DNA of 34,356 nt from positions 1-34,356 of the forward strand of contig MNZR01000239.1 of NCBI GenBank assembly GCA_001873705.1, given 5' to 3'. The position numbers and the translations under genes are program-made. Positions within the stretch are counted from its first letter, which is position 1. Each line of letters starts with the position of its first letter. Shown here piece by piece: positions 5,036 to 27,939 of this stretch. Below the pieces are notes generated by a model. The model had not been told where the DNA came from, did no database searches, and saw only the letters and a list, made by a program, of their open reading frames with translations. This DNA is from Syntrophobacteraceae bacterium CG2_30_61_12 (GTDB taxonomy: Bacteria; Desulfobacterota; Syntrophobacteria; Syntrophobacterales; DSM-9756).

Positions 5036-6040
5036 TTACTCCTTCTCCACCGGTAGGCCAGCCTCAATCATCTTTTCCCTGAACTCTTCTTCATACTCGT
5101 CGTAGGTATGGGTCTTGACCGGGTAATTCCAAGGATTCACATGCCGCACGAAGCGGCTGTTGTTGGCCAGGTTGCGGGTCGGGCTGAGAAACACTCCGGC
5201 CAAATGCACCAGTTTACTGAACGGAAAATAGGCAAACAACACACTCACCAGGAAGATGTGGATGTAAAAAATGGAGCCCACCCCTTCCACCACCGTTGGT
5301 TGCAACGCGGCCAGTCCCAGGGTCATTTGCTTGACCCCGATGATGTCGACCTTGATGAAATAGCGCATCAAAATGCCGGTCAGACCGATACTGAAGATGA
5401 GGACCAGCGGGAAATAATCCGCCGGCAGCGAAATGTATTTCAATTGCGGCACCAGGTAGCGGCGCGCGAACAGGTAGGCGATTGCGGCCAAGAGCACCGC
5501 GCCGGAAAGATAAAAGCGGGGCACCCCCACTTCCAGGAAGCCGTCCAGCCCCTCGAGGCCGCGCACCAAGCCGGCCACCGGTTCGGAAAAGAACCGAAAA
5601 TGGCGGATCAGAATCACCAAAAACGCATAATGGAAGGCGATCGCCCCCAGCCATAGCCATTTGGCCGAACCGTAGAGCAGCTTCGGACCCTCGCGCAGTT
5701 CCAGCTTGACGTTGCGAAACAGCGATCGGAACAGAAACACTTCGAAGAACATCCGTTTGAGGACGCCCTTGGTGTCGACCGGATTCTCGATCGGGCTCCA
5801 TTTTACCCATGGGAGAGACTTCTGCTGCCCGCAGGTGGTCGGAATGCGGAACGGCACGGGGGAACGCGCCCAACCCACGATCCGATACACCATGCCGAAC
5901 AGGAAGATCGCGAACGCCAGATAGGGGATCAGCACTCCGAACAAAAAGTGCATCCCTATGAGGCCCGCGCCGACCCAGGAGAGCAAAACGAGCACCACCA
6001 CGGCCACAAGTGAAAAAACGACGGATTCCTTGGGGTTCAT
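5036..6040 (-). CDS. dsrM: DsrM, NarI-like cytochrome b membrane subunit
   Basis: 334 aa polytopic protein with conserved histidines, directly upstream of dsrK. Confidence 0.92.
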   Translation of the reverse strand: MNPKESVVFSLVAVVVLVLLSWVGAGLIGMHFLFGVLIPYLAFAIFLFGMVYRIVGWARSPVPFRIPTTCGQQKSLPWVKWSPIENPVDTKGVLKRMFFEVFLFRSLFRNVKLELREGPKLLYGSAKWLWLGAIAFHYAFLVILIRHFRFFSEPVAGLVRGLEGLDGFLEVGVPRFYLSGAVLLAAIAYLFARRYLVPQLKYISLPADYFPLVLIFSIGLTGILMRYFIKVDIIGVKQMTLGLAALQPTVVEGVGSIFYIHIFLVSVLFAYFPFSKLVHLAGVFLSPTRNLANNSRFVRHVNPWNYPVKTHTYDEYEEEFREKMIEAGLPVEKE

Positions 6041-6079
6041 TTAACGGCACCTCGCTTTACATTTGGTTAATAATGGATG

Positions 6080-6619
6080 TTATGATTCAGGGACTCGGGA
6101 GCGCTGCGCCCGTTTCTCCCATAAAGCATTGGCGCGTTCCAGAAGCTTGCCGGCCCGCTGTTCGCTTTCCTTGACCCTGATGCTGTAAAGCTGGGCCCGG
6201 CAGTTGGTGTAAATGTCGAACGCCAGCAGGGCCAGCCGATCGATGCGGGGGGCAAATTGCCGGAGTTGGCGAGACAGTTCCGGTTCCTCCAGGTCCTCGG
6301 CCAGCACGTCGCTCAACACGCGTTTCAGCTGGAAGATGAAAACCAGGGCCCGCGCCGGGCTGAAATCCTGCAGCGCCCGTACCCGAATGATATCGTCGAG
6401 AAACGTGGTGGCTTCCACTTCGTCCTTGTTTTCCAGCAGCAGGTCCAAAATTCCGTTGAGGCCGTCGCGAACGGTCCGGCCCACCGGATTGGCGAAGGGA
6501 TCTTGTTCTTTTTTCAGGAACTGAGCGGTTTCTTCCGGGTAGGAATCGATCACCGCCTGGAACCAGCCGGTGAGTATTGCGGAACGTTTCTTTGCTAAAA
6601 GTTTCTCAAATGCCATCAT
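6080..6619 (-). CDS. RsbRD N-terminal-domain-like protein at the head of the dsr operon
   Basis: About 180 aa helical protein (FEKLLAKKRSAILTGWFQAVIDSYPEETAQFLKKEQDPFANPVG...), typical of RsbRD_N-like proteins. 40 bp upstream of dsrM on the same strand. Confidence 0.75.
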   Translation of the reverse strand: MMAFEKLLAKKRSAILTGWFQAVIDSYPEETAQFLKKEQDPFANPVGRTVRDGLNGILDLLLENKDEVEATTFLDDIIRVRALQDFSPARALVFIFQLKRVLSDVLAEDLEEPELSRQLRQFAPRIDRLALLAFDIYTNCRAQLYSIRVKESEQRAGKLLERANALWEKRAQRSRVPES

Positions 6620-6887
6620 CACTTACCTTGCCTGTGCCGCGGTGCCATCCGTGGCCCACCGGGACGCCGAAGTCAACGGCCGCGGCGCCCGCGCCCGGCC
6701 GATGCGCACCCTGACGGCGGCCTGGAGACCGGACGCGCACCCGGCACCCGCTGGCTCCGTGGGCCTTCCACCTTATCTTGTGAACTAGCGCACTATAGAC
6801 CCATCCTGCAAGCCTGTCAAGGCTGATCCAACGGCCTTCTACCGACTTTCAACCGGTCGGGATGGACCCTTGAATAACCGCGTTGAC

Positions 6888-6915
6888 GGACCAAGGATGA
6901 GCCTTATCTTGGTCC
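6888..6915. repeat. Inverted repeat GGACCAAG-N12-CTTGGTCC
   Basis: Perfect 8-bp arms downstream of the radical SAM gene. No clear T-tract, so termination is not claimed. Confidence 0.5.
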
Positions 6916-7004
6916 TCTTGCCGCGCCAGATGCCATGCCGGGTGCTGGCCGCGAGCACGCGCGGTTGTTGGATTTCGGTTTCGCTGCAGGAAACAGCGGG
7001 TCGC

Positions 7005-9101
7005 TCACCTTTCATCTCGCACCCTCCCTCGGATCGTTCCGGCCAAGGTTTCGATATAGCGCCCCTTCCCTGGTCGATTGTTGTAGCGGAAGATCGTGTC
7101 CACCAACTGCCGGTGCAGACGTCCAAAACGCTCTGCATAGAGCCGGCTCAGCCACCGGTAGTACTTTTCCATGCTCTTCATGTTCTGGGTGAATTGAACC
7201 GTCACCAATTCGTCGATCAGGCGATCGACCGCACCGTCGAAGAACCCGTCCATGGACGGCTCAGGGCCATTCGGTATGGGTTGATAGCATTGCACGAAAA
7301 CATAGGCCCCCGGCAGCGAGCGGAGAAAGCGAAACCGTTCCAGGTCCTCGGCCAGGGTCGTTCGGTAACCGTACATGCAGATAAATTCGACGTTATCCGA
7401 TGCGCGGAAATCGAATAGGCCATATTTTTCCAGGACCAGGTCGAGTCCGCTGCAGTCATTCAGGCTGAAATGATAGTTGCGGCGGGTGAAGCGGGTATTG
7501 GAACAATGAATTCGCTTCAGCAGATCGGCCCGCTTTCGATCGACCAATCGGATATCCAGGGTCTGGGTGAAATTCACCTGAATCCGGCGAGACGCCATCT
7601 GTTCCAACAGCGATTCCGCACCGGGTGCCGCCAGCAAGTTGTCGTCGAGAAGAATGAGCTTGTTTCCGCGCCCGCCTTGCAACAAATCATCGAGATCGCC
7701 CACCAGCCGGGGCGAGCCCTCCTTTTTCGGTACGATGCAAAAAGCGCAGTGACGGGGACAGCCGCGGGTGAGAAACCCGATGGCCCGATCGCCGAGATTC
7801 GGGTACAGATCATAATCCGAAGGCAGACCCTCAATCTCCGCGGGCAGCCGCTGGTACAGATCGACTCCGGATCCGCCCAAATTCAGCTTGTCCCCGTAAT
7901 GGCGCTTCAGCGTCTCGATTTTTCGGCGCGTGTGGTCATTGTGGAAAACCGCGCTGGCGTACACTTCCGCCGCCGACCGAAGCAACGCGGTCCCGCGCGC
8001 CAGGGTCACTTTCCGGCCCTGGTTTTTGAAATGACGCGAGAGCTTCATCAGGGCCAGGTTGGGGAGGCGACTGTCCACATCGATCAGCAAGATATCCACG
8101 GTTCGCAACCGAATCGGCCTGCTCCTCGGCGGAGCCTTGGCCAGATCGAGGCGCAACCGTTCACGGAGCAACGCCGGGGGAGCGGTTCGGGCGATCCGTG
8201 GCGCTAGATTCACGATGAATTGAAAATTCGGCAACCATTGATCCCAGAACGTCATCCAGGTTGAGAGCCCGAGGCCTCCTACCCTGCACGCCGGCCGGTC
8301 GAACAGGATGACACCCGGCTGATCGAGCGGCGCCGGCGATTTCGGAAACGCATCGAGCAGGTGTCGACCGGCGTCGAGCGCTGGAATCAACAGTACTCGC
8401 GCTTCCGGAGGGAGCGCCGCCCAGCGGTCCTTTTCATGCCAGGCGGATTTGTCAACGGAAAAATGGTCCTGGAGCAACCCCCGCAGGCGATCGAGAATGT
8501 GCCGGGGGCCGAATCGCCGGTACGTCGCCCGGCGGTGCAGGTTCCTCAAAAAAGCACTCGGGTCGGTCAGCCGTGCCGTGGCGGAAAAAAGGGAATGAAA
8601 GCGACGCCGTCGAGTCCATGAGTCCATGAAATCGAAATCATCGGTCCCTGCATGGACCTTCCACCGCGACCCATACGCCAGGAGGAAACCATGCCGCAGC
8701 CTGGCGCGGCTGCAAATATTTCGCAATCTGCCGATAGTCCCGCCCAAATCCTGTTTCTTGAGCGGCTTCGGCAGCTCCGCCGAGCGCTGCTGAAGCCCGC
8801 CGACGAACAACTGCAGCGGGCTGGTTGAGGTATCCTGGGGACAATGCCAGGCCGCGAGATACTCAACCCCCATGGGGAGTACCGGATTCCCGTGAAGCCT
8901 GGCAAGATCGTGCGGGAACCAAGCCCAAAAAGCGGCGCTGTTCGCGGCCACCACGCACAGCCGAAGCTGCTCTAGTCGGGCCGGACCGCATTCGAATAGA
9001 TTCCATTTCGGCAAGCCGGGCGGATCCTGCCGATCATGCAAGACCAGGCTGCCGGTGCCGTTTTGGGTAGTGTTTCGATAACTCACGGTCAGCAAATACA
9101 C
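7005..9101 (-). CDS. Radical SAM protein with an uncharacterised N-terminal region
   Basis: CX3CX2C motif in GFLTRGCPRHCAFCIVPKKEG. Preceded by a B12-binding-like segment (VDILLIDVDSRLPNLALMKLSRHFKNQGRKVTLA). Start proposed as GTG at 9101 after GGGAGGAAAGC. The track start (9635) would run antisense through tetR. Confidence 0.75.
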   Translation of the reverse strand: MYLLTVSYRNTTQNGTGSLVLHDRQDPPGLPKWNLFECGPARLEQLRLCVVAANSAAFWAWFPHDLARLHGNPVLPMGVEYLAAWHCPQDTSTSPLQLFVGGLQQRSAELPKPLKKQDLGGTIGRLRNICSRARLRHGFLLAYGSRWKVHAGTDDFDFMDSWTRRRRFHSLFSATARLTDPSAFLRNLHRRATYRRFGPRHILDRLRGLLQDHFSVDKSAWHEKDRWAALPPEARVLLIPALDAGRHLLDAFPKSPAPLDQPGVILFDRPACRVGGLGLSTWMTFWDQWLPNFQFIVNLAPRIARTAPPALLRERLRLDLAKAPPRSRPIRLRTVDILLIDVDSRLPNLALMKLSRHFKNQGRKVTLARGTALLRSAAEVYASAVFHNDHTRRKIETLKRHYGDKLNLGGSGVDLYQRLPAEIEGLPSDYDLYPNLGDRAIGFLTRGCPRHCAFCIVPKKEGSPRLVGDLDDLLQGGRGNKLILLDDNLLAAPGAESLLEQMASRRIQVNFTQTLDIRLVDRKRADLLKRIHCSNTRFTRRNYHFSLNDCSGLDLVLEKYGLFDFRASDNVEFICMYGYRTTLAEDLERFRFLRSLPGAYVFVQCYQPIPNGPEPSMDGFFDGAVDRLIDELVTVQFTQNMKSMEKYYRWLSRLYAERFGRLHRQLVDTIFRYNNRPGKGRYIETLAGTIRGRVRDER

Positions 9102-9201
9102 GCTTTCCTCCCGGTCAGCCCTTCCTTGGCAAACCACCAATACCGGGCATTGCCCCACAGTGGCCGAATTCCATCGTCTTTCCTTGTATCCGCTTGCTGG
9201 T

Positions 9202-9237
9202 TGTTTTGCAAAGCCGGCATGCCGGCATTGACAAACA
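9202..9237. promoter_or_regulatory. Putative TetR operator in a divergent intergenic region
   Basis: Perfect 14-bp palindrome GCCGGCATGCCGGC (9213-9226) inside a larger dyad TGTTTnnCAA-n-core-n-TTGnnAAACA. 15 of 18 base pairs are symmetric. Confidence 0.6.
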
Positions 9238-9257
9238 GCGGGCACCGGTCCTAGAAT
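9228..9257 (+). promoter_or_regulatory. Sigma70-like promoter for tetR-mqn
   Basis: TTGACA (9228-9233), 18-bp spacer, TAGAAT (9252-9257). The -35 overlaps the right half of the dyad. Confidence 0.6.
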
Positions 9258-9311
9258 GACCACCTGGTCACTTTGCTGCCCGCTGGTGTGCTTTTGAGCG
9301 AAAGGTCGGAT

Positions 9312-10016
9312 GTGCCGGTTACCGAACGATTCAATAATCTGGATCAGGCCAAGCAGCGGAAAATCCTGGCGGCGGCGGTCGAGGAATTCGCCGAGCAGGG
9401 CTTCATGCAGGCCAGTATGAACCGGCTGGTGCACAAACTCGGCATCGCCAAGGGTTCCCTGTTCCAGTATTTCGGCAGCAAGGAAGGCCTGTTCCGCTTC
9501 ATCTTCGAGCACGCCGTGGACCTGGTTCGGCAATCCCTCCGGCAGGTCAAGCGGGACACCGCGGACGCGGATTTTTTTCTGCGCATTCGGCGCAGCCTGG
9601 CCGCCGGCGTGGCGTTCATCGACCGTCATCCACAAGTCTACCAGATCTACCTGAAGATGATCTTTCAGGAAAAATTCCCTTACCGCACCGAATTTTTACA
9701 GCAGGTTCACCTGTTTTCCGCGGAATACCTGACGCCTTTGGTGGAAGCCGGAATCGAACGGGGCGAACTGCGTGCGGATCTGGATGTCGCCACCACCGTG
9801 TTCCTGCTGGACGCGGTGCTGGACCGGTTTCTCCAGGCTTACAGCGTGTCCTTTCTGGACGCGGGGATGGGAATCTACCGAGCCGGGGAAGACCAGGTGA
9901 AGGAACGGATCGAGCGGGTGATCGAGGTGCTGCGCCAGGGGCTTGGCAGCAGCGAAGCCGACCCTGCGCCGCGGAGCGGCGCGGATCAAAAAGGGAGTAA
10001 ACGCCGCCATGTTTGA
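9312..10016 (+). CDS. TetR/AcrR family transcriptional regulator
   Basis: N-terminal HTH (KQRKILAAAVEEFAEQGFMQASMNRLVHKLGIAKGSLFQYFGSKEGLFRFIFEHA). GTG start at 9312 preferred over the track start at 9273. The 3' end overlaps mqnE by 8 bp. Confidence 0.85.
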   Translation: MPVTERFNNLDQAKQRKILAAAVEEFAEQGFMQASMNRLVHKLGIAKGSLFQYFGSKEGLFRFIFEHAVDLVRQSLRQVKRDTADADFFLRIRRSLAAGVAFIDRHPQVYQIYLKMIFQEKFPYRTEFLQQVHLFSAEYLTPLVEAGIERGELRADLDVATTVFLLDAVLDRFLQAYSVSFLDAGMGIYRAGEDQVKERIERVIEVLRQGLGSSEADPAPRSGADQKGSKRRHV

Positions 10017-11151
10017 ACCAAAGTGGTACCAATCCCTTGGCTTGGAGGATATTGCCGCCAAGGTGCGGGACGGCGTCCGGCTCAGCCTGGAAGACGGCGA
10101 GCGGCTCTACCGCTGCCCGTCGCCGCTGGCGGTGGGTGCCCTGGCGCATCAGGTGCGAACCCGTTGCCACGGCAACCGCACCTTTTACGTGCTGAACCGG
10201 CACATCAACTATTCCAACATCTGTGTGAACGGCTGTTTGTTCTGCGCCTTCAGCCGGGAAGCCGGGGCCCCCGGCGCCTTCCAACTGTCGCTGGAAGATA
10301 TTCTCGGCAAGCTCACTGAACCCGAAGCGGCCGCCATCACCGAAGTGCACATCGTCGGCGGCTGTCATCCGGACCTGCCGCTCGCCTATTTCGAAACCAT
10401 GCTCCGGGAAATCAGACGGATTCGACCGCACCTGGTGATCAAGGCCTTCACCGCGGTGGAAATCCAGCACTTCGCAGACCGTGAAAAAACCAGTGTGGGC
10501 GCGGTGCTGGCACGGCTGCAAGCGGCCGGGCTCGAGCTGCTCCCGGGCGGCGGCGCGGAAGTCTTCAGTCCGCGGGTCCGCCGGTTGCTCTGCCCCAACA
10601 AGCTGAGCGGCGCCGGCTGGCTGGCGGTGGCGCGGGAAGCGCACCGGATGGGGATTCGGAGCAACGCCACCATGCTTTACGGCCATCTCGAATCGCACCG
10701 GGAACGGCTGGAACACCTGGACGCGCTGCGCTGTCTCCAAGATGAGACCGGCGGCTTTCTCTGCTTCATCCCGCTGCCGTTTCAGCCCGATCATACCCTG
10801 ATCGAGAACGCCCGCGCCACCACCGGGGTGGATGATCTCAAGACCATCGCGGTGAGCCGCCTGATGCTCGATAACATCCCCCACATCAAAGCCTATTGGG
10901 TCATGCTCACGGTCAAGGTGGCCCAGACGGCGTTGCACTTCGGCGCCGATGATCTCGACGGCACCGTGATCGAGGAAAAAATCGGCCACATGGCCGGGGC
11001 CGAATCGGACCAGGCCCTGACCCGGAGCCAATTGGAACGGCTGATCCGGGACGCCGGGTTCGAACCGGTCGAGCGCGATTCCTACTTCCAGCCGGTGGCG
11101 CGACCGGACCAAACCGAGGCCGCGCCGGCCCGCCATCACCCATGCCCGTGA
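10009..11151 (+). CDS. mqnE: Aminofutalosine synthase (radical SAM)
   Basis: NICVNGCLFCAFSRE (CX3CX2C), MqnE-type C-terminus and gene context. ATG at 10009; the track start at 9943 adds 22 residues. Confidence 0.9.
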   Translation: MFEPKWYQSLGLEDIAAKVRDGVRLSLEDGERLYRCPSPLAVGALAHQVRTRCHGNRTFYVLNRHINYSNICVNGCLFCAFSREAGAPGAFQLSLEDILGKLTEPEAAAITEVHIVGGCHPDLPLAYFETMLREIRRIRPHLVIKAFTAVEIQHFADREKTSVGAVLARLQAAGLELLPGGGAEVFSPRVRRLLCPNKLSGAGWLAVAREAHRMGIRSNATMLYGHLESHRERLEHLDALRCLQDETGGFLCFIPLPFQPDHTLIENARATTGVDDLKTIAVSRLMLDNIPHIKAYWVMLTVKVAQTALHFGADDLDGTVIEEKIGHMAGAESDQALTRSQLERLIRDAGFEPVERDSYFQPVARPDQTEAAPARHHPCP

Positions 11152-11173: not shown

Positions 11174-12253
11174 ATGCTCGATCAAGCACTCAAAACCAAA
11201 GTCGAAGGCCACGCTCGCCTGAACCTGGACGAAGCCTGGCAGGTGTATGCCCAGGCCGATTTCCACTGGCTCGGGTTGCAAGCGCATCAGGTGCGCCTGG
11301 ACAAACACCCGGAACCGGTGGTCACCTACGTGATCGACCGCAACATCAATTATTCCAATATCTGCGTTTGCGGCTGCCGGTTTTGCGCCTTCTTCCGGCC
11401 ACCCGACCATCCGGAAGGCTATCTGCTGAGCCAGCCCGACCTGGCCGCGAAAATCGATGAAACCCTGGCTCTCGGCGGCACTCAGATCCTGATGCAGGGC
11501 GGCCACCACCCGGGGCTCCCGCTCGGCTATTACGAAGATCTGCTGCGCTTCATCAAGCGTCACGCGGCGATTCACGTGCACGCCTTTTCGCCGCCGGAAA
11601 TCGTTCACTTCAGCAAACTCAATCGGCTGTCCGTGGGCGAGGTCATCGCCCGCTTGAAGCAGGCGGGGCTCGATTCGATCCCCGGCGGTGGCGCCGAAAT
11701 CCTGGTGGACGAGGTGCGCCGTAAGGTTTCGCCCAACAAGTGCGGATCCGATGAGTGGCTGGCGGTGATGGAAGAAGCTCACCTTCAGAGGCTCCGCACC
11801 ACCGCGACCATGATGTTCGGCCACCAAGAAGAACCGATCCACCGTCTGGAACATCTATTCAAGCTGCGCGATTTGCAGGATCGCACCGGCGGTTTCACCG
11901 CTTTCATCCCCTGGAGTTTCCAGCCCCAGCACACGGCGATCCAGCGCGAACCGGAAGGCGCCGTGGCCTATCTCCGGTTGCTGGCGGTGTCCCGGCTGGT
12001 GCTCGACAATTTCGACAACCTGCAGGCTTCCTGGGTCACCATGGGGCCGAAGATCGCCCAGATGGCCCTGTTTTTCGGGGCCAACGATTTCGGTTCCACC
12101 ATGATCGAAGAAAACGTGGTGGCGGCCGCCGGGGTCCGGTTTCGCCTGTCTCTTGATGAGATGTATCGGCTGATCGAAGCGGCCGGGTTCCGCCCGCGGC
12201 AGCGCATCATGGACTACCGCCGGGTGAGCGGAAAGGCGAGCTATACCGGTTGA
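11174..12253 (+). CDS. mqnC: Cyclic dehypoxanthinyl futalosine synthase (radical SAM)
   Basis: NYSNICVCGCRFCAFFRPP (CX3CX2C), GGTQILMQGGHHPGLPL, and position next to mqnE. Confidence 0.9.
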   Translation: MLDQALKTKVEGHARLNLDEAWQVYAQADFHWLGLQAHQVRLDKHPEPVVTYVIDRNINYSNICVCGCRFCAFFRPPDHPEGYLLSQPDLAAKIDETLALGGTQILMQGGHHPGLPLGYYEDLLRFIKRHAAIHVHAFSPPEIVHFSKLNRLSVGEVIARLKQAGLDSIPGGGAEILVDEVRRKVSPNKCGSDEWLAVMEEAHLQRLRTTATMMFGHQEEPIHRLEHLFKLRDLQDRTGGFTAFIPWSFQPQHTAIQREPEGAVAYLRLLAVSRLVLDNFDNLQASWVTMGPKIAQMALFFGANDFGSTMIEENVVAAAGVRFRLSLDEMYRLIEAAGFRPRQRIMDYRRVSGKASYTG

Positions 12254-12346
12254 GGATAAAATCTCTCATTATCAAGGGCGGGCAAGATGCCCGCGCTCCC
12301 AGGCAAGAGCCCACACGAAATGAAGGTTTTTAGCCCTAGCAATACT
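12242..12346 (+). repeat. MITE-like repeat, copy at the mqnC/mqnX junction
   Basis: TATACCGGTTGAGG...GGGCGGGCAAGATGCCCGCGCTCCC...CACACGAAATGAAGGTTTTTAGCCC. Same architecture as the copies at 16384 and 27834. Confidence 0.8.
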
Positions 12347-12349
12347 GAC

Positions 12350-13630
12350 ATGGTGCAAGCGACCCTCTTGCGGCGGGCGCCCTGGGTGCTGCCCGGCCGC
12401 GGCCCGGTGATCGAAGACGGCGCGGTGCTGGTGCGCGGGCGGACCATTGAAGCCGTGGGGCGTTATGCCGATATCGCTCGAATCGCCGCCGCGGGCACCA
12501 GGACCATCGACCATCCGGACCAGGCTCTCATCCCCGGCCTGGTGAACGCCCACACCCATCTCGAATGGAGCGGTCTGGCGGGCCGCATTCCGTTGCCCCA
12601 GAACGGGTTCCCGGCCTGGCTGCAAGCCTTCAACCGGGAGCGCGCCGGGCTTTCCGGTTGCGATCGAGCCGCCGCCGTCGCCGCCGGACGAAGAGCACTC
12701 ATCGAGGCGGGCACGGCTGCCTGTGCCGACGTCGGCTGCACCCTCGAACCCTTCGAGCCGGACCGGAGCGCTCACCCGGATGCCGCTCCGGATGCCGCGA
12801 CTCCGCCGACCGCCGAAGCCTGCCCGGAATTGTTTCTGTTCGAGGTGCTCGGCTTCAATCAAACCGATCTCCACCGGGTGGCACCGCTCGAACGATTGGC
12901 GGCGCATCCGCCGGCGGCTTCCGGCGGGCCGATGATGAGTCTCGCGGCCCACGGCTGCTATTCCACTTCGGCCGCGCTGATCGCTCAGGCCAAGGCCTGG
13001 ACCCGCATGAGAGGGTTGCCGTTTTCCATCCATGTGGCGGAACATCGGGAAGAACTTGAATTGCTTCAAACCGGCACCGGGTTCTTTCGCGATTTCCTGG
13101 AATCTCTCGGCCGCTGGGTGCCGACCTGGACGCCACCCGCAACCAGCCCGGTGGGTTTGCTCGATTCTCTGGGGGTGCTTGATTCCCGAACCCTCCTGGT
13201 CCATGCCGTCCACCTGAGCGCGGCCGACTGGGACCTGGTGGCCCGGCGCGACTGTAAGGTCTGCTTCTGCCCGCGCAGCAACGCCGCCATCAACGTCGGT
13301 CGGCCGGACCTCGCGGCGGCGCTCGAACGCGGCATCGCCACCGCGCTCGGCACCGACAGCCTGGCCAGCAACCAGGACCTCAACCTGTTTCGAGAAGCCG
13401 CCCGGGTGCTCGATGCTTACCCGGAGATCCGGTCCGAGCAGGTGCTGCGCATGATCACCGTCGGCGGGGCCGTCGCGCTGGGCTGCGAGGATCATTTCGG
13501 CAGCCTCGCTCGCGGCCGTTCCGGGCACTTTCCGGCGGTCGCCGTGCCGGCCCGGACCGCCCCGAAGCACCTGGTGGAAACCATCATCGCACAAGGAGCC
13601 GCGGGAAAATGGCAGTGGACGCGCGCCTGA
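12350..13630 (+). CDS. mqnX: Amidohydrolase, probable aminodeoxyfutalosine deaminase
   Basis: Metal-binding NAHTHLEW, IHVAEH and LVHAVH motifs, within the mqn cluster. ATG at 12350; upstream codons from 12287 are repeat-derived. Confidence 0.8.
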   Translation: MVQATLLRRAPWVLPGRGPVIEDGAVLVRGRTIEAVGRYADIARIAAAGTRTIDHPDQALIPGLVNAHTHLEWSGLAGRIPLPQNGFPAWLQAFNRERAGLSGCDRAAAVAAGRRALIEAGTAACADVGCTLEPFEPDRSAHPDAAPDAATPPTAEACPELFLFEVLGFNQTDLHRVAPLERLAAHPPAASGGPMMSLAAHGCYSTSAALIAQAKAWTRMRGLPFSIHVAEHREELELLQTGTGFFRDFLESLGRWVPTWTPPATSPVGLLDSLGVLDSRTLLVHAVHLSAADWDLVARRDCKVCFCPRSNAAINVGRPDLAAALERGIATALGTDSLASNQDLNLFREAARVLDAYPEIRSEQVLRMITVGGAVALGCEDHFGSLARGRSGHFPAVAVPARTAPKHLVETIIAQGAAGKWQWTRA

Positions 13631-14478
13631 CCGAGCGGATCAACCTCGGTAAGTTCGGCTTTTTGAATGTCCTTCCCATCTACTACCCGATCGAATCCGG
13701 GGTGGTGGCGAGCGCCAGTCGCCTGGTGACCGGTCCGCCCGCCCGCCTGAACAAGCTCATGGCCGAGGGCCGGTTGGACATCAGCCCGGTTTCATCGATT
13801 GAAGCCGCGCTGCACGCGGAGCGCTATGTCCTGGTGCCCGACCTTTCCATCAGTTCGCGCGGGCCGGTGCTGAGCGTTCTATTGATGAGCCGACGACCGG
13901 TTCACGATCTGAGCGGCTGTTCGATTCTGGTGAGCGCCAAGTCGGAAACCTCGATCGCGCTGCTGGAACTTTTGACCCGCCTGCGCTGGCACCTGCGCGA
14001 TGTGAAAACCTTCAAAGGCTGCGTCACCGCCAGCTTGAATCACGGGGAACGGCCCACCGCCTTTCTCGCCATCGGCGATGAAGCCCTCACCTGGAGCCGG
14101 CAGGAAGAATATCCTTACCGGTTGGATCTCGGTCAGGCCTGGTTCGAGTGGACCGGTCTGCCGTTTGTGTTCGGTCTGTGGACGGTGCGCCGCGACAGTC
14201 TGGCGGCAAAACCCCGGGGGATTTTTCAGACCGTCGATGAACTGATGGCGGCCAAGACCTGGGGCCGCGGTCACATGCCGATCATCTGCCGCGAAGCGGA
14301 ACGCCTGAGCGGGTTTGATCAAGAGGCCCTGAGCGATTACTACCGGCACCTTTGCTTCGATCTGGGAGCGGCTGAGCAGTGCGGCTTGCGGCATTTTTTC
14401 CGGTTGCTTTACCAGACCAATAGGCTACCATCAATTCCTGAACTGGAACCCCTGACCCGCTTTGCGCAAGTGGCGTGA
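13609..14478 (+). CDS. mqnA: Chorismate dehydratase
   Basis: LGKFGFLNVLPIYYPIE...; overlaps mqnX by 22 bp; MqnA-type sequence. Confidence 0.88.
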   Translation: MAVDARLTERINLGKFGFLNVLPIYYPIESGVVASASRLVTGPPARLNKLMAEGRLDISPVSSIEAALHAERYVLVPDLSISSRGPVLSVLLMSRRPVHDLSGCSILVSAKSETSIALLELLTRLRWHLRDVKTFKGCVTASLNHGERPTAFLAIGDEALTWSRQEEYPYRLDLGQAWFEWTGLPFVFGLWTVRRDSLAAKPRGIFQTVDELMAAKTWGRGHMPIICREAERLSGFDQEALSDYYRHLCFDLGAAEQCGLRHFFRLLYQTNRLPSIPELEPLTRFAQVA

Positions 14479-14509
14479 ACCGGCTGGAGAGCGCTGGAGG
14501 CCTCAAGGC

Positions 14510-15313
14510 ATGAGCACCGGCAGGACGCTGCGACTGAAGCGACTGGTCAATCCGGAAGACGGGCGGATCGTCGTTCTGCCGCTGGACCACGGGGTGAGCT
14601 GCGGGCCGATTCCGGGGTTACAGCAGATGGACCAGGCGGTCCGGACCGGGGTGGCCGGAGGCGCCGACGCCATGGTGCTGCATAAGGGCATGTTCCGCTA
14701 CCTGGACGGGCTGCCGCATCGCCTGCCGGGCCTGTTCCTGCACCTTTCCGCCAGCACTCAACTGGGACCGGACTTTCATCACAAGGTGCTGGTGGGCACC
14801 GTGGAAGAAGCCCTACGGCGGGGAGCCGACGGCGTTTCCGTGCATATCAATCTGGGTGCTCGGGAAGAGCGGGAAATGCTGCTGGACCTGGGCCGAGTGG
14901 GAACGGCCTGTGCCGAATGGCAACTGCCGCTCCTGGTGATGATTTATGTGCGCGGCGCCTATGCCCCCAACCCCATGACCGATGCGGCCCTGGCCCATGC
15001 CGCTCGAGTCGCGGCGGAACTGGGCGCCGATCTGATCAAGATGCCGGCACCCCGCGACCCCGACAATCTGGCCCGGATCACGGCCGGAAGTCCGGTACCG
15101 GTGCTGGTCGCCGGTGGCGGCAAGGCCGGCGACAGTGGCGAATTTCTCTTGCGGATCGAACAGGCGCTCAGTGCCGGCGCCGGCGGCGTGGCGATCGGCC
15201 GCAACGTGTTTCAGCATGAGCGCCCGGTGGTTTTTCTCAAGCTGATCGCGGCCTTGGTCCACGGCCACCTGAGCGCCGTGGAAGCCGCCGCCCGCCTGCG
15301 GGCCGACGCCTGA
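14510..15313 (+). CDS. DhnA/ADHS-type class I aldolase family protein (FBA or 2-amino-3,7-dideoxy-D-threo-hept-6-ulosonate synthase-like)
   Basis: PLDHGVSCGPIPGL, MIYVRGAYAPNP, LIKMPAPRDP and GGGKAGD motifs. ATG at 14510. Confidence 0.75.
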   Translation: MSTGRTLRLKRLVNPEDGRIVVLPLDHGVSCGPIPGLQQMDQAVRTGVAGGADAMVLHKGMFRYLDGLPHRLPGLFLHLSASTQLGPDFHHKVLVGTVEEALRRGADGVSVHINLGAREEREMLLDLGRVGTACAEWQLPLLVMIYVRGAYAPNPMTDAALAHAARVAAELGADLIKMPAPRDPDNLARITAGSPVPVLVAGGGKAGDSGEFLLRIEQALSAGAGGVAIGRNVFQHERPVVFLKLIAALVHGHLSAVEAAARLRADA

Positions 15314-15407: not shown

Positions 15408-15516
15408 GACCCATCCCCACGCCTAACAAGAGCATCCAGTTGCAACCACCTGACCAGCAACCATCAGTCATCAACCGCCCGCGCAACCAAAGGCTGCCGT
15501 CGTGGATCATGGCCGG

Positions 15517-16116
15517 ATGAAAGCTTCCCAGTACATCGTTGCCGTTACCGGCGCCAGTGGCGCTCCCTATGCCCGGACCCTGCTCGATCAATTGCTCCGG
15601 AGACAACTGCCGATCCACCTGGTGGCGTCCAAGGCCGGCCGCCTGGTCTACCGACTGGAAACCGGTTGCGATCTGCGCGAGCAGTTCGGCGATCGGGTGT
15701 GGTTCCATGATGCCGCCGATTTCACCGCTCCCATCGCCAGCGGTTCGTTTCCCGCCGCCGCCATGGTGGTGGTGCCCTGCACCATGGGGACCCTGGCCGC
15801 CATCGCCCAGGGCATTTCCAGCAATCTGATTCATCGGGCCGCCGACGTGTGCCTCAAGGAAGGCCGCAAACTCCTGCTGGTGCCGCGGGAAACCCCGCTC
15901 AGCCGGATTCATCTCGGCAACATGCAGCGGGCCGCCGAGGCTGGAGCGGTGATCCTGCCGCCAATGCCCGGATTTTATCAGCGGCCGCGGTCGGTGCAGG
16001 ACCTGGTGGATTTCGTGGTGGCTCGAATTCTTGATCAGTTGGGCCTGGTTCAAGATCTGATCAAGCCCTGGGACCCGGAAACCGCGTTGGACCCGGCAGC
16101 AGAGTCGAAAGCCTAG
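15517..16116 (+). CDS. UbiX-like flavin prenyltransferase
   Basis: VAVTGASGAPYARTLLDQLL, VVVPCTMGTLAAIAQGISSNLIHRAADVCLKEGRKLLLVPRETPLSRIHLGNM. Confidence 0.88.
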   Translation: MKASQYIVAVTGASGAPYARTLLDQLLRRQLPIHLVASKAGRLVYRLETGCDLREQFGDRVWFHDAADFTAPIASGSFPAAAMVVVPCTMGTLAAIAQGISSNLIHRAADVCLKEGRKLLLVPRETPLSRIHLGNMQRAAEAGAVILPPMPGFYQRPRSVQDLVDFVVARILDQLGLVQDLIKPWDPETALDPAAESKA

Positions 16117-16259: not shown

Positions 16260-16387
16260 TATACTTGTGAAGGCTTGAAAGTTTCATTTCCGCGCGGAGA
16301 CGCAGAGACGCGGAGGTTGATTTCAGGGCTCTTCTCCGCGCTCTCAGCGCCTCTGCGGGAGCACAAAACGTAACTTCTCAAGCTATA
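16260..16387. repeat. Second TIR-bearing repeat family, TATACTTGTGAAG...CTTCTCAAGCTATA
   Basis: Imperfect terminal inverted repeats around CGCGGAGACGCAGAGACGCGGAG and CTCCGCGCTCTCAGCGCCTCTGCGGG. Shares TATA with the next element. Confidence 0.6.
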
Positions 16388-16489
16388 CTGGCTTAGGATC
16401 AGATGTTTCATTACCAAAAGCGGGCAGGATGCCCGCGCTCCCGGGAAAGGGCGCACGCGAAATGAAACTTTTTACCCTTAACCGGTATA
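16384..16489 (+). repeat. MITE-like repeat copy
   Basis: TATACTGGCTTAGGATCAGATGTTTCATTACCAAAAGCGGGCAGGATGCCCGCGCTCCCGGGAAAGGGCGCACGCGAAATGAAACTTTTTACCCTTAACCGGTATA. Confidence 0.85.
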
Positions 16490-27833: not shown

Positions 27834-27939
27834 TATACTGGTTTAGGATTGGATGTTTCATTACCAAAAGCGGGCAAGATGCCCGCGCTCCCGGGAAAGA
27901 GCGCACACGAAACGAAACCTTTTGCCCTTAACCGGTATG
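27834..27939 (+). repeat. MITE-like repeat copy
   Basis: TATACTGGTTTAGGATTGGATGTTTCATTACCAAAAGCGGGCAAGATGCCCGCGCTCCCGGGAAAGAGCGCACACGAAACGAAACCTTTTGCCCTTAACCGGTAT. Confidence 0.85.

Follow-up and report, generated by a model that had tools for sequence, protein, structure and literature searches.

A predicted TetR-family regulator of futalosine menaquinone genes and its candidate operator in Desulfobacterota

Local repressors of the TetR family, of which AcrR and MtrR are examples, are encoded beside their targets and act from palindromic operators lying over the promoter, and a TetR repressor placed over its own biosynthetic operon is already a known type of system. RutR, the TetR-family pyrimidine regulator of E. 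coli, has a palindromic box of about 16 bp upstream of its own gene and of its target genes (PMC10891134). Two surveys of the futalosine route describe the enzymes, and no dedicated TetR regulator appears in them (PMC4746308, PMC3914697). We found neither a regulator of the futalosine pathway, TetR or other, nor any match to the operator letters reported below in the open-access literature, a scope outside which most subscription journals fall, and the regulation of menaquinone supply on this route appears to be little described. Here we consider a window of 34,356 nucleotides (the whole stretch of DNA that was analysed) from contig MNZR01000239.1 of Syntrophobacteraceae bacterium CG2_30_61_12, in which a tetR gene precedes a futalosine gene cluster. 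On the basis of sequence comparisons we think it highly likely that the product of this gene, called MqnR for convenience, is a dedicated repressor of the futalosine pathway that would act on the inverted repeat TGACCACCTGGTCA, control its own gene, be released by a ligand and, in other genomes, work in trans.

The regulator gene and its surroundings

MqnR combines an N-terminal TetR helix-turn-helix domain (PF00440, 54 bits against a cut-off of 24) with an all-helical fold carrying a TetR-type C-terminal domain (PF21256), and is placed in the TetR family on these grounds. The AF2 model (mean pLDDT 88) has TetR structures as its best PDB matches, the nearest solved folds being those of Caur_2714, TM1030 and RutR. 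The GTG start codon at 9312 is backed by the N-terminus at the orthologous locus L031, and almost every one of 60 related genomes encodes a clear orthologue.

The genes that follow (Table 1) form a predicted futalosine operon, as judged from mqnE and mqnC equivalogs above their cut-offs together with mqnA, and the cluster order recurs, complete or partial, in relatives. Like described futalosine (mqn) clusters, this one holds mqnE, mqnC, mqnA and a probable aminofutalosine deaminase together; the last of these, MqnX, scores 120 bits against the aminofutalosine deaminase family PRK08418, which is below the cut-off, and its place in the operon is conserved. The aldolase encoded further along is the archaeal-type (alternative) shikimate entry enzyme, found here, and in many relatives too, within a menaquinone operon. 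A repeat of about 105 bp with the core GCGGGCAGGATGCCCGCGCTCCC is seen three times in the window (12242-12346, 16384-16488 and 27834-27938) and in at least 40 copies in the genome, with 92-100% identity among the matches listed and 285 candidates at first look. The first of these copies lies between mqnC and mqnX, with the annotated mqnX start inside it, and could interrupt the operon.

Table 1. Positions of the genes and sites discussed in the text
Feature	Position	Strand	Basis and remarks
Radical SAM-like gene, CxxxCxxC	7005..9101	-	GTG start 9101 backed by homologues; sporadic, no conserved neighbour
Dyad around GCCGGCATGCCGGC	9202..9237	.	Real; specific to own genome; outside the conserved regulator-operator system
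Sigma70-type promoter of tetR-mqnE, TTGACA-N18-TAGAAT	9228..9257	+	11/12 match; register conserved in orthologous loci
Predicted TetR operator TGACCACCTGGTCA	9257..9270	.	6-bp arms, 2-bp spacer; conserved at orthologous tetR
tetR-family regulator gene (MqnR)	9312..10016	+	PF00440 and PF21256 above cut-off; GTG start
mqnE, aminofutalosine synthase	10009..11151	+	TIGR03700 500 bits, cut-off 434.55; ATG overlaps tetR stop
mqnC, cyclic dehypoxanthinyl futalosine synthase	11174..12253	+	TIGR03699 486 bits, cut-off 428.1
Amidohydrolase, probable aminofutalosine deaminase (MqnX)	12287..13630	+	PF01979; start codon uncertain
mqnA (chorismate dehydratase)	13609..14478	+	PF02621 212 bits; operon position
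DhnA/ADH-synthase-type aldolase	14462..15313	+	PRK07226 above cut-off; same operon in many relatives
UbiX family flavin prenyltransferase	15502..16116	+	TIGR00421 above cut-off; operon order

Two inverted repeats upstream of tetR

A sequence-only reading of the window had proposed a GCCGGC dyad at 9202-9237 as the single site to which the TetR protein binds in order to repress both tetR-mqnE and the radical SAM gene on its other side. The elements that it named are present: the perfect 14-bp palindrome GCCGGCATGCCGGC occupies 9213-9226, the surrounding 36 bp contain 15 symmetric pairs out of 18 (19 of 25 when the dyad is widened to 9195-9244), and TTGACA (9228-9233) and TAGAAT (9252-9257) read toward tetR with 18 nt between them. 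Perfect 14-bp palindromes are ordinary here, with 8 in the window versus 3.4 expected from dinucleotide shuffles. The 36-bp dyad is the only one of its kind in the window, and such a dyad arises in 4% of whole-window shuffles and, when the intergenic region alone is shuffled, in 0 of 2000 cases; this rarity, together with the overlap of the dyad with the -35 box of tetR, speaks for the proposal. The promoter that faces tetR is likewise beyond chance (0 of 300 shuffles; 0.2 expected at the promoter-search threshold). On the minus strand, the letters of TTGCAA (9211-9206)-N17-TACAAG (9188-9183), which had been assigned to the radical SAM gene, are also in place, but as a promoter this 8/12 match stands at chance level, about 1.4 such matches being expected by chance in the intergenic region.

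On the evidence of footprinting in orthologous tetR loci, the dyad was rejected as the TetR operator. When the upstream regions of tetR in 55 relatives, none of the same genus, were searched for GCCGGCATGCCGGC with a tolerance of 3 mismatches, a similar palindrome was found in only one, and there at 3 mismatches. Neither Pfam nor NCBIfam gives a match at 0.001 for the radical SAM-like protein, which has the motif GCPRHCAFC, and its gene adjoins tetR in the window and at no other orthologous locus; close homologues (51-53%) are encoded in four of the 60 relatives, and a partial one in a fifth, in each case elsewhere in the genome and with no comparable dyad. A shared switch for menaquinone synthesis and the radical SAM protein is unsupported because the gene never lies beside tetR elsewhere and its homologues are sporadic and lack the dyad; a conserved divergent pair with an operator between its members was not found among the orthologous loci. 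The idea that the radical SAM gene is under divergent control was rejected in view of its neighbourhood, its sporadic homologues and its chance-level promoter, and since a different site (9257-9270) passes every sequence test, we regard the proposal as a whole as extremely unlikely. Within the same family, the divergent neighbour of tetR-mqnE is rsbRD-dsrM, as seen at four loci of the first set (L031, L037-L039) and also at L120-L123; in the window (5036-9312) the radical SAM gene sits between tetR and rsbRD-dsrM.

The dyad itself may be a product of chance or a lineage-specific site for another regulator. A role as an RNA hairpin was set aside as unlikely, given that the dyad precedes both predicted promoters and their start points. 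This position, the strong dyad symmetry, and the lack of any further exact copy of the 9213-9226 palindrome elsewhere in the genome would suit a second site for some other dimeric regulator, perhaps one serving the radical SAM gene, beside the conserved TetR operator. The homologous radical SAM genes have no such dyad, however, and its outer symmetry comes partly from TTGCAA and TTGACA, which happen to be equidistant from its centre, so we hold this second-site explanation to be possible but doubtful.

The site to which we assign MqnR is a second inverted repeat, TGACCACCTGGTCA (TGACCA-CC-TGGTCA), which was overlooked in the sequence-only reading and is centred about 44 bp downstream of the centre of the first palindrome. 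It begins with the T that ends the -10 box and spans the expected transcription start, which coincides with its centre and is a natural position for a repressor. The pattern TGAC[CT]N4GGTCA occurs upstream of tetR in all 56 orthologous loci drawn from the 60 related genomes, as against 5 of 11,200 shuffled upstream regions; 55 of the 56 have TGACCN4GGTCA, and the remaining locus has TGACTACGTGGTCA. A change in one arm is often matched by a change in the other (TGACCGACCGGTCA and similar), and several genomes have a second copy of the operator, lying upstream by about 50 bp or downstream by about 15 bp. In 48 of the 56 loci the operator and a -35/-10 pair, usually TTGACA-N16..18-TATAAT, are joined in a single register, defined by at least 4/6 matches in each box, a spacing of 16-18 nt and fusion of the -10 box to the operator. 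Because this register is constant while the distance from operator to start codon varies between 28 and 178 nt, the operator tracks the promoter. Its conservation with tetR and the futalosine genes makes TGACCACCTGGTCA very probably the docking site of this TetR-type regulator. Of what had been proposed for this region, self-control by TetR together with control of the menaquinone genes through the named sigma70-type promoter is supported by the sequence, but not through the named dyad, nor as one switch that also serves the radical SAM gene. The locus shows how a conspicuous local palindrome can mislead when it is a plainer one that has been conserved.

Distribution of the regulator and the operator

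A wider set was made up of the 80 closest relatives of MqnR that named genomes yielded, which include Syntrophobacterales, Desulfovibrio, Pseudodesulfovibrio, Desulfobacterales, Desulfarculus, Desulfofervidaceae and others. The operator is found upstream of 47 of the 48 regulator genes linked to mqnE, the exception being L144, where mqnE is about 1.7 kb away, and upstream of none of the 31 regulator genes located away from mqnE; one further regulator gene, at a contig end, has the operator. All 31 unlinked regulator genes are followed by a homologue of the futalosine hydrolase gene mqnB; the tie of the regulator to the futalosine pathway thus persists where it has parted from mqnE. Four of four mqnB homologues checked (three of these 31 and that of G236, see below) score above the TIGR03664 cut-off, and the mqnB matches beside the regulator in Desulfarculus-type genomes are weak (22-26%). 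Action of the unlinked regulators in trans on mqnE would call for an operator at the distant mqnE promoter. This prediction was tested in 30 genomes, including that of L144, which is not of the unlinked kind and gave no match; an mqnE match was obtained in 24, and 21 of these 24 loci have the operator within 300 bp upstream. Of the three misses, two are truncated by contig ends, which leave only 19 and 104 nt of upstream sequence, and the other is an incomplete mqnE match below the family cut-off. In place of the operator, some mqnB-linked regulator genes of Desulfobacterales (in the set L140-L177) have ATTATCATGATAAT-like repeats upstream (L147 and L152, and in partial form L154, L155, L169, L174 and L175), which are perhaps another control of the tetR-mqnB pair.

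A blind scan for the promoter-operator pattern TATNATGACCRNNYGGTCA covered 198 genomes sampled evenly across the phylum. The pattern is strict and leaves the window's own -10 box TAGAAT unmatched, so that the ten matches obtained are a lower bound. Three of them are known loci, and four are new loci directly before tetR-mqnE-mqnC-mqnX (one family, outside the first 60 relatives). Another belongs to G236 and precedes an mqnE start by about 40 bp, inside the spacer of a TTGACA-N17-CATAAT promoter, and the regulator gene of this genome is on another contig, between aroQ and mqnB. The matches in G245 and G125 have no mqn gene nearby and were counted as chance.

These distributions bear on two other explanations of the conserved site. 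A protein other than the adjacent TetR could recognise TGACCANNTGGTCA, TetR binding being itself a prediction; against this, the site and this TetR lineage co-occur in linked and in unlinked genomes, two genomes that have mqnE and lack a close regulator also lack the site, and the exact site is present once or twice per genome in most members of the order, one copy being at the tetR-mqnE promoter. We therefore consider binding by some other regulator very unlikely. Being locked to the -10 box, the conserved site might be read not as a repressor operator but as an activator site, or as no more than a piece of an extended promoter element. The palindromy and the paired changes in both arms fit repression better, however, as do the second copies at a spacing of about 50 or 15 bp and the position of the G236 site between the -35 and -10 boxes, and an activator site or promoter element seems to us highly improbable.

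Returning to the predicted TetR operator, the regulon appears to be small. The genome of the window contains one other exact site (C18), inside a coding frame, and nine sites with one mismatch, eight of them inside ORFs and one intergenic with no recognisable -10 box in register; the total of 11 is below the 16 obtained with a reversed-pattern control. A wider regulon in this genome was rejected in view of these coding-frame locations and of the count. The mqnB and mqnD genes, on another contig of the same genome, have no site within one mismatch and were ruled out as targets, which implies that the later steps of the pathway are not under the regulator; judged by its sites, it probably controls the early futalosine steps only. 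Further exact sites in relatives are mostly inside ORFs. In G003 (L065-L070), eight further exact copies of TGACCANNTGGTCA share one flanking sequence and look like the termini of an element that is repeated and probably an insertion element. In G029 (L074, position 1572), an intergenic exact copy near a contig end is preceded by TAAAG; no target gene was found for it, and it may mark another target.

Proposed regulation and known TetR systems

The operator, its promoter register, its conservation and the constant linkage to futalosine genes are read directly from the sequences compared, and the following steps build on them. A dimer of the TetR protein would bind the site fused to the -10 box, over the start point, and would block RNA polymerase at what is predicted to be the single promoter of tetR-mqnE-mqnC-mqnX-mqnA-(aldolase)-ubiX. 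Since a block at this one promoter would affect the whole cluster, the regulator, where linked to mqnE, would repress itself and the early pathway steps together; repression is what we infer from the position of the site. To judge from the conserved arrangement, the sigma70-type promoter is very probably the point at which the TetR protein governs both its own expression and the menaquinone genes that follow. By analogy with other TetR proteins, a small ligand might release the regulator and allow more menaquinone synthesis, and as a guess this ligand could be a futalosine-type nucleoside, the naphthoate product or a precursor. In other lineages of Desulfobacterota, with the regulator gene beside mqnB and the same operator at a distant mqnE promoter, action would be in trans. 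We lean slightly toward a broader picture, in which a dedicated and widely conserved futalosine regulator of the Desulfobacterota senses an intermediate or product of the pathway and sets the menaquinone supply of sulfate reducers; on this view some lineages have it act on its own operon, whereas in others it would reach mqnE solely in trans.

The dsr membrane complex is thought to use menaquinol, and in one family the operon adjoins rsbRD and the genes of this complex. One predicted regulator with a defined 14-bp site in several lineages of Desulfobacterota, including Desulfovibrio and Pseudodesulfovibrio, makes the proposal testable in genetically tractable sulfate reducers, and the ligand would reveal what the cell measures when deciding on menaquinone synthesis.

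Among solved TetR proteins, Caur_2714 of Chloroflexus aurantiacus (3nrg) and TM1030 of Thermotoga maritima (2id6) are the closest to MqnR by profile (3.5e-40 and 5.8e-21) and by fold, at 29% and 18% identity; the structure records of both name no menaquinone link. RutR resembles MqnR in being among the nearest folds (4jyk, rank 3), and the consensus of its box, TTGACCANNTGGTCAA, is nearly the same as the operator described here, but MqnR falls short of the RutR cut-offs (35.5 of 368 bits for TIGR03613 and 34.4 of 230 for PRK15008), shows about 20% identity in the structural match, and is linked to futalosine genes rather than to pyrimidine use. MtrR is the top NCBIfam match of MqnR (53 bits), albeit below the family cut-off. 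Unlike AcrR and MtrR, whose targets are efflux pumps, MqnR is associated with biosynthetic genes and with an operator fused to the -10 box.
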